Assembly: GCA_014728215.1 (NCBI GenBank)
Contig: WJLZ01000012.1
Location: 1-34,462 of the forward strand
Length of the DNA: 34,462 nt
Source: Chitinivibrionales bacterium
GTDB taxonomy: Bacteria; Fibrobacterota; Chitinivibrionia; Chitinivibrionales; WJKA01
Direction: 5' to 3'
Shown in pieces: positions 31,214 through 32,566 of the stretch. A model generated the notes under the pieces. That model was given only the letters and a program-made list of their open reading frames with translations, made no database searches and was not told the origin of the DNA. Position 1 is the first letter of the stretch. Each line of letters opens with the position of its first letter. The translations under genes and the position numbers were made by a program.

Positions 31214-31342
31214 TCCCGATATGCTCAAGGCAGATCCAAAGGTGGAGTAATGGATACGAAACATACAACCGCGCCTGCTCCACCTTTATCCGTCAAAGAC
31301 ACTACCCACTCCTCCAACACTCCGGCACTCGCCTACTCCATT
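31204..31342. repeat. Nested palindromic TGGAG/CTCCA repeat spanning the lgt end and comF start
   Basis: Outer arms AATGGAGTA (31204-31212) and TACTCCATT (31334-31342) match perfectly. Inner arms AAAGGTGGAG (31238-31247) and CTCCACCTTT (31278-31287) also match over 10 bp. The right side carries the CACTCCTCCAACACTCC motif found in the right arm of the repeat at 10911-11008. The structure covers the lgt stop codon, the only ribosome-binding site of comF and its first 31 codons. Confidence 0.7.
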
Positions 31343-32059
31343 CTTCGAAAAGCATTTACTAATGCAATGCACTTCATTTTCCCTCCTCTGTGCATTATCT
31401 GCACCGGACCTCGTGCAGAAAAAAACCGCTGGTTCTGTATCAACTGTTTGGAAAAGCTGAAAAAAAACAATGCCGGTCGCGACGCCTGTCCCCGGTGTTC
31501 TCAAAACAGAGCAATTCGCCCATGCACCTGCGAGATGGTATGGGACCATCCCTTCGAAAGAATATATTCCCTCTTTGATTTCGATGAAACCATACAGTCC
31601 ATCGTCCATAACATTAAATACAGAGGGAAAAGCCGACTCGCCTTTGATACAGCCCTCCTTCATGCCGCCAAAATCCCTGTTGAATTTGTTGAAACCACCG
31701 ATGTAATTATCCCGGTGCCGCTCCACTTTTTCCGGAAAATGAGCCGGGGCTATAATCAGGCGGAATTCTTAGCCCGAGGATTTGCTCACGGATGCAGCAG
31801 ACAGATGCCGATCTATACCGATATTCTGATCCGGAAACGACAAACCAAATCCCAGACTACCCTCGATAAAGAGGAACGCCAATCCAACCTCAAAAAAGCC
31901 TTCACAATCCCATCCTCAAAAGCCTCTTCCCTGAAAAACAAACGAATCCTCTTAATCGACGACGTCGTCACCACCGGCGCGACAACCGGTTATTGCGCCA
32001 CGGCACTGCTCGAAGCCGGAGCACGGTCGGTGAACGTGGTAAGCTTGGCAAGAGACTAA
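31250..32059 (+). CDS. comF: ComF family phosphoribosyltransferase-like protein
   Basis: A 269-residue ComF/GntX homologue. The N-terminal zinc-ribbon has paired cysteines (CIIC; FCINC; CPRC; CTC) between about residues 47 and 92. The C-terminal phosphoribosyltransferase domain has VIIPVPLHFFRKMSRGYNQA, the KRQTKSQTTLDKEERQSNL segment and the PRPP loop ILLIDDVVTTGAT. ComF supports DNA uptake in competent bacteria, although its exact reaction is unclear. The ATG at 31250 lies two bases after GGTGGAG. The first 39 residues are atypical and derive from a palindromic repeat; M40 at 31367 resembles the usual start of the family but lacks a ribosome-binding site. The stop codon forms part of the target site of a MITE-like insertion. 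Confidence 0.9.
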   Translation: MDTKHTTAPAPPLSVKDTTHSSNTPALAYSILRKAFTNAMHFIFPPLCIICTGPRAEKNRWFCINCLEKLKKNNAGRDACPRCSQNRAIRPCTCEMVWDHPFERIYSLFDFDETIQSIVHNIKYRGKSRLAFDTALLHAAKIPVEFVETTDVIIPVPLHFFRKMSRGYNQAEFLARGFAHGCSRQMPIYTDILIRKRQTKSQTTLDKEERQSNLKKAFTIPSSKASSLKNKRILLIDDVVTTGATTGYCATALLEAGARSVNVVSLARD

Positions 32060-32220
32060 GAGTCCCTAACAAAATGAAGTCCTACTCCGGCCGGCTGCTA
32101 AAACCCATTGGCTTCGTTTGGCTGCATCGCCATATCTCAGCGGATATGTCTGCTTCGCCTGCCTCGCCACTGGGTCTTCTCGCTCAGCCATCGTTACGTA
32201 CCTCATTTTGTTAGGGACTC
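32060..32220. mobile_element. MITE-like foldback element inserted at the comF stop codon
   Basis: A 161-bp element with perfect 18-bp terminal inverted repeats, GAGTCCCTAACAAAATGA (32060-32077) and its complement (32203-32220). It is flanked on both sides by TAA (32057-32059 and 32221-32223), a probable 3-bp target duplication; the left TAA is the comF stop codon. The interior is a second imperfect palindrome around CATATC/GATATG, with ACCCA-TGGC facing GCCA-TGGGT outer arms, so the whole can fold as a hairpin. It has no ORF. The parent transposase is not in the window. Confidence 0.75.
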
Positions 32221-32343
32221 TAAATGAAGGGTATCGGTTCAATCCAAAGAGAAAAAGAGACGGCATTTCATAGCTGAAGCCGGAACCATAAAAACCAGCA
32301 AATCCCCCTCCACCATTGCAAACTTTTTTCCGGAATGTTATTT

Positions 32344-32362: not shown

Positions 32363-32447
32363 GGAGGACTAGCATAATTGGTAATGCAGCGGTCTTGAAA
32401 ACCGCCGTCCTTTGGACTTGGGGGTTCGAGTCCCTCGTCCTCCGCCA
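32363..32447 (+). tRNA. tRNA-Ser(UGA), atypical, with encoded CCA
   Basis: The acceptor stem GGAGGAC (32363-32369) pairs with GTCCTCC (32437-32443), discriminator G32444 and encoded CCA to 32447. The anticodon stem GCGGT/ACCGC encloses CTTGAAA, with anticodon TGA at 32396-32398, reading UCA. A long variable arm (GTCC-TTT-GGAC) identifies a class II tRNA, hence serine. The D arm is compact (GCAT/ATGC with an 8-nt loop), unlike the other two serine tRNAs, and these lack an encoded CCA. A strong terminator follows. Confidence 0.88.
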
Positions 32448-32458
32448 TGATAATAAGA

Positions 32459-32493
32459 GCCCTTTTGTAAGTCATTGCAAAAGGGCCTTTTTT
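32459..32493 (+). terminator. Rho-independent terminator after tRNA-Ser(UGA)
   Basis: A 9-bp stem GCCCTTTTG/CAAAAGGGC (32459-32467/32478-32486) is followed by a run of six T (32488-32493). It ends the tRNA transcript before the next gene. Confidence 0.9.
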
Positions 32494-32566
32494 ATGTGCC
32501 GATTTTTTACTTGCAATTATCCATGAATGAATTGTCCGGTGAGCCATTCAAAGGGAGCTAAAAACC

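Follow-up and report, generated by a model that had tools for sequence, protein, structure and literature searches.

The 161-bp palindrome inserted at the comF stop codon in a Chitinivibrionales genome is a true MITE, moved by a bacterial transposase. It is very probably mobilised in trans by an IS5-family transposase and carries, between its ends, one conserved hairpin core that has been reused with the ends of different transposases. The element lies in a stretch of 34,462 nt (positions 1 to 34,462 of contig WJLZ01000012.1), which is referred to here as the window.

The gene preceding the element, an ORF of 269 aa, matches the ComF subfamily profile TIGR00201 (E=2.8e-33), and its features and those of the MITE are listed in Table 1. 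In agreement with an earlier note made from the sequence of this DNA, the two 18-bp terminal inverted repeats (TIRs) are exact reverse complements of each other, and TAA is present on both sides of the element, the left copy being the comF stop codon. Since the target duplication restores the stop, the ComF protein is unchanged by the insertion, also as the note had claimed. A search of the window for the first 17 bases of the TIR with up to three mismatches returned two occurrences, against 0.08 expected. When folded as RNA, the 161-bp element reached -64.7 kcal/mol (z = -7.5 with respect to shuffled sequence), and the inserted MITE would place a hairpin in the 3' UTR of the comF mRNA. The interior is non-coding and hairpin-forming, as had been noted, yet it is not the generic sequence it was taken for, as it contains a conserved structured core common to many MITE families.

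Table 1. Features of the MITE insertion at comF (window coordinates).
Feature	Position	Strand	Basis or remark
comF, ComF-family phosphoribosyltransferase	31250..32059	+	269 aa ORF; TAA stop is the left duplication
Left target-site duplication TAA, comF stop codon	32057..32059	+	sequence
MITE, 161 bp, class A TIR	32060..32220	.	sequence and genome copies
Left TIR GAGTCCCTAACAAAATGA	32060..32077	+	identical at either terminus of an IS5 element of 904 bp in JACPJE010000025.1
Conserved structured core, model R1/R2, 108 positions, 30 pairs	32083..32193	+	covariance models
Right TIR, left TIR in exact reverse complement	32203..32220	-	sequence
Right target-site duplication TAA	32221..32223	+	sequence

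Just downstream of the MITE, the region 32363-32495 contains a gene for a tRNA (Rfam, E=2.9e-12), behind which a hairpin with a run of T is probably its terminator. In a genome of the same genus (G001), the gap between comF and the tRNA gene, which is occupied by the MITE in the window, contains a different palindrome (TATCCTGAATTCCGCA ... TGCGGAATTCAGGATA; L213).

Searching the host assembly (5.0 Mb in 229 contigs), as the earlier note had proposed, revealed seven full copies of the MITE, 88-100% identical, together with one chimera. A matched TNA duplication, either TAA or TTA, flanks six of the seven full copies, and the remaining one lies between ATA and TTA. Among all class A copies, once deduplicated, identical 3-bp TNA flanks were found in 19 of 22. 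The class A TIR also bounds dozens of elements outside the host; a scan of public genomes for this TIR next to TNA returned 36 DNA stretches, many of which come from a single Phycisphaerales MAG; the matched pairs included TTA, TAA and TGA. The TAA duplication is therefore correct for the window site, whereas the target in general is TNA (TAA, TTA or TGA) and not TAA specifically. Neither a single-copy state nor relatives sharing the sequence without an empty-site allele, the two findings that had been set in advance against a transposable element, was encountered. In G001, comF (63% identical) is not followed by such an element, and the DNA behind the gene has diverged too far to provide a clean empty site. 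Copy L007 is bordered at one end by a further partial TIR, TTTAGAGGCCCTAACAT (G000:C5, about 1290-1315), which resembles either the remnant of an end or one insertion nested in another.

An autonomous partner was identified in the Latescibacterota contig JACPJE010000025.1, where a 904-bp IS spanning two adjacent tiles (L077 and L058) exhibits the same 18-bp ends and a TTA duplication. Its transposase, consisting of 266 aa, matches transpos_IS5_3 (NF033580, E=2.1e-69) as well as PF13340 and PF01609. The IS5-type DDE transposase, the TNA duplication and the length of about 0.9 kb fit the IS1031-like group of the IS5 family, whose limits (a short IS with a TNA duplication) we take to be those used in ISfinder. 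A transposase gene with the same ends, for which the earlier note had suggested looking, thus exists in a Latescibacterota genome, but the search of the host assembly detected none. No PF13340 proteins were detected there, an absence that carries little weight in a fragmented MAG, and near-match TIRs other than those of the known copies did not exceed the control count; the autonomous IS may have been lost from the host or may lie in unassembled DNA. Taken together, the multiple copies, the matched duplications and the IS5-type partner with identical ends support the proposed non-autonomous transposable element. Elsewhere, at L055 (WJKA01000605.1, 900-1080), a lone class A TIR is located directly behind a reading frame that by eye resembles an IS630-type transposase, with no second TIR nearby.

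Weak genome matches to the middle of the element came from equally long MITEs that have other TIRs, namely GAACTCATCTCATAAATG in the host and also GAAGCCATCTCATAAATG and GAGCTTATCCATAAATAA. These core-bearing MITEs constitute a class of about 155-175 bp in which the core is enclosed by more than 20 distinct TIRs, with duplications of 3 or 4 bp. TIR classes A, C, F, G and K are associated with a 3-bp TNA duplication, the D-class TIR GGGNACCTCTAAAAATTCA with 4-bp A/T-rich duplication sites, and the E-class TIR CAGGGTGTTGAAAAAGTCC with a 4-bp duplication, TTAA/CTAA. A D-type end, GGGAACCTCTAAAAA, is also present on a 1271-bp IS of another genome (G041), whose transposase (transpos_IS5_4, NF033581) could not be aligned by BLASTP with that of class A; the flanks of this D-type IS (L185) show no clean duplication. 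When 30 PF01609 transposase loci in 14 genomes were checked for the known TIRs, the D-type end alone matched, and a partner IS is identified for two of the more than 20 TIR classes. Within the host, the core occurs in at least two element types beyond class A, one with the class B ends GAACTCATCTCATAAATG (L009/L011) and the other a divergent copy, L175 (G000:C215:61612-61718).

Mean core identity was 0.66 between elements of the same genome with different TIRs, 0.59 between different genomes with the same TIR and 0.52 otherwise, and a single genome (G089) contains four TIR types with cores that are 81-94% identical. Copy L008 is a direct chimera, comprising a class A left half, a class B right interior and a class A tip. 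Many TIR classes are loosely alike (GAGnCnnTnn..AAAA), and slow divergence, rather than swapping, possibly lies behind the ends of some of them. Ends and core are modular, and the interior is older and more widespread than the ends.

To follow the core across genomes, two covariance models were used, one derived from the interiors of 12 copies with four TIR types and the other from 39 diverse copies. In Fibrobacterota, the phylum of the window, 22 of the 151 genomes searched with the 12-copy model gave matches over its full length; this model also recognised Planctomycetota elements outside its training set with E values of 3e-12 to 1e-7. With the 39-copy model, the core was detected in 50 of 294 Planctomycetota genomes, and three genomes of this phylum contained 10, 3 and 27 copies, respectively, and a fourth at least 145; the Latescibacterota genome bearing the partner IS contained 23. 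The same model detected it in 15 of 297 Acidobacteriota genomes, with lower scores, and in 2 of 398 Pseudomonadota genomes, a rarity that doubles as a false-positive control. Of the weak loci inspected in the last two phyla, three (L258, L260 and L261) are flanked by significant inverted repeats whereas several are not, and consequently the range of the core in Acidobacteriota and Pseudomonadota is less certain. The genome with at least 145 copies (G204, Planctomycetota MAG B58T3L14) combines several different TIRs and is well suited to the study of end exchange.

The predicted pairing of the core shows strong covariation. In 71 distinct sequences aligned by fitting to the covariance model, 28 of the 30 pairs exhibited compensatory change, and 89.6% of cells were paired, compared with 65% when partners were shuffled and 36-50% when they were slid by 1-3 columns. 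The covariation score was 0.643 against 0.200 for shuffled partners, which we treat as an indication and not as a clean P value because the copies are kin. The 39 diverse copies, likewise fitted to the model, gave the same outcome, and the 12-sequence alignment, which was not fitted, showed 93% pairing against 37-44% when slid. Conservation extends to unpaired positions, where the motif CGGCTGC faces TCGCTCG.

The stable fold, the strong covariation and the conserved unpaired positions could indicate that the core functions as a structured RNA, produced by transcription of host operons or of the element itself, and the frequent placement of core elements after gene ends would agree with this. 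We nevertheless consider an RNA function unlikely. An RNA transcribed from a given strand should give an excess of G.U pairs, whereas A.C mismatches are at least as common (54 vs 37, outside the poorly paired helix 7), and this near symmetry favours a constraint on pairing at the level of DNA rather than RNA, again as an indication, given the kinship of the copies. Moreover, Rfam returned no match over the window element at E<=5, and none over 12 other core loci at E<=0.1 except chance matches outside the core.

Imperfect palindromes can self-correct. The covariation might accordingly be unselected, the arms having been copied onto each other by template switching in a class that is merely old and mobile, and the nearly symmetric G.T and A.C counts are those expected of a process acting on DNA. 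Such correction would, however, wipe out fixed bulges, yet the unpaired columns of the core are as conserved as the paired ones (mean of 0.90 vs 0.86 bits). We regard this explanation, too, as unlikely.

Internal deletion is the standard view of how MITEs originate (PMC10969869), and the TIR common to the MITE and the autonomous IS5 element would suit an ordinary MITE of this kind, derived from a single IS5 element and retaining an interior without a role. The interior, however, is not homologous to the matching IS, and the core gave no match at E<=1 in the partner loci L058 and L077, so that it is not a remnant of the class A partner. The core furthermore recurs with more than 20 other TIRs in several phyla, and its pairs covary. 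Derivation from the matching IS by internal deletion was thus rejected, and an ordinary MITE appears highly improbable. We likewise reject, as scarcely credible, a small peptide encoded by a class A ORF of 46 codons running from an ATG in one TIR to a TAG in the other: this frame is open in the window copy, but core lengths fall in all three frames (29/22/22 of 73), indels shift the frame, no single frame is open throughout the core, and class C TIRs lack the ATG.

The earlier note had also suggested that elements targeting TAA/TTAA-like stop codons can spread at little cost. Among the 52 copies, from all classes, that could be tested, 13 overlap a stop codon that ends an ORF of 80 aa or more, whereas TNA or A/T sites in the vicinity but outside ORFs predict 5.5. 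This enrichment of about 2.4-fold (Monte-Carlo P printed as 0.0 in 20,000 simulations) is suggestive, as ORFs were called mechanically and the host copies had been seen before the test. With a cut-off of 120 aa, the overlap was 10 against 3.5 expected. In the host, an ORF ends exactly at the duplication of copies L001 and L004, and L006 overlaps a stop. The stop-codon idea therefore holds less strictly than proposed, in that the elements insert at TNA, a motif covering two of the three stop codons, and not at the stop codon as such.

Based on the anatomy of the element and on the partner IS, we propose that an IS5-family transposase of the NCBIfam transpos_IS5_3 type would recognise the 18-bp ends and insert the element at TNA with a 3-bp duplication, and that the MITE would be transposed in trans by this enzyme. 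The window copy landed on the comF stop codon, which the duplication restored. New ends would probably be acquired by recombination or tip replacement between MITEs co-resident in a genome, and through the drift of ends that follow new transposases. The core would most likely act as an extruded or single-stranded DNA hairpin with fixed bulges that aids survival or transposition under any transposase, which is the least certain step of the proposal. Tentatively, the core may be a selfish module, a parasite of transposons, that persists across phyla by acquiring IS5- or IS1182-like ends and has a DNA-hairpin function independent of the transposase.

The window MITE is a further member of the IS5-type MITEs. 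It resembles IS5-family MITEs (IS1031-like) in being short and devoid of a transposase, with perfect TIRs, a 3-bp TNA duplication and an IS5 partner having the same ends; it differs in that its interior is not IS-derived and its structured core is common to MITEs of other end types. The ERIC and bcr1 repeats are mobile imperfect palindromes of about 130-160 bp with short duplications and a conserved fold. They are listed among MITEs (PMC3733652). Descriptions of these repeats concern restricted groups and, for each repeat, a single end type, whereas the core class comprises more than 20 end types in several phyla. Widespread extragenic palindromes with conserved unpaired motifs are also known as REP/BIME and as CGTC- or GTAG-tagged palindromes (PMC3733652). 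REPs, however, are 20-40 bp long and are tied to tyrosine (RAYT) transposases or to none (PMC3733652), and a REP or REPIN identity was set aside on size and anatomy, given the unit of about 160 bp, the DDE-type TIRs and the duplications. Within the limits of our search, the core class is new, being described neither in Rfam nor in the literature searched; no account of one core common to MITEs with different ends was found there, which is weak evidence of novelty as few subscription papers were reached.

MITEs are normally classed by their ends and seen as decayed insertion sequences. Here, the core is older and wider in distribution than the ends, a pattern that suggests a mobile structured module outliving its transposases. 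The covariance model provides a tool to find core elements across phyla regardless of their ends, and the role of DNA hairpin structure in the movement or persistence of non-autonomous elements becomes testable.
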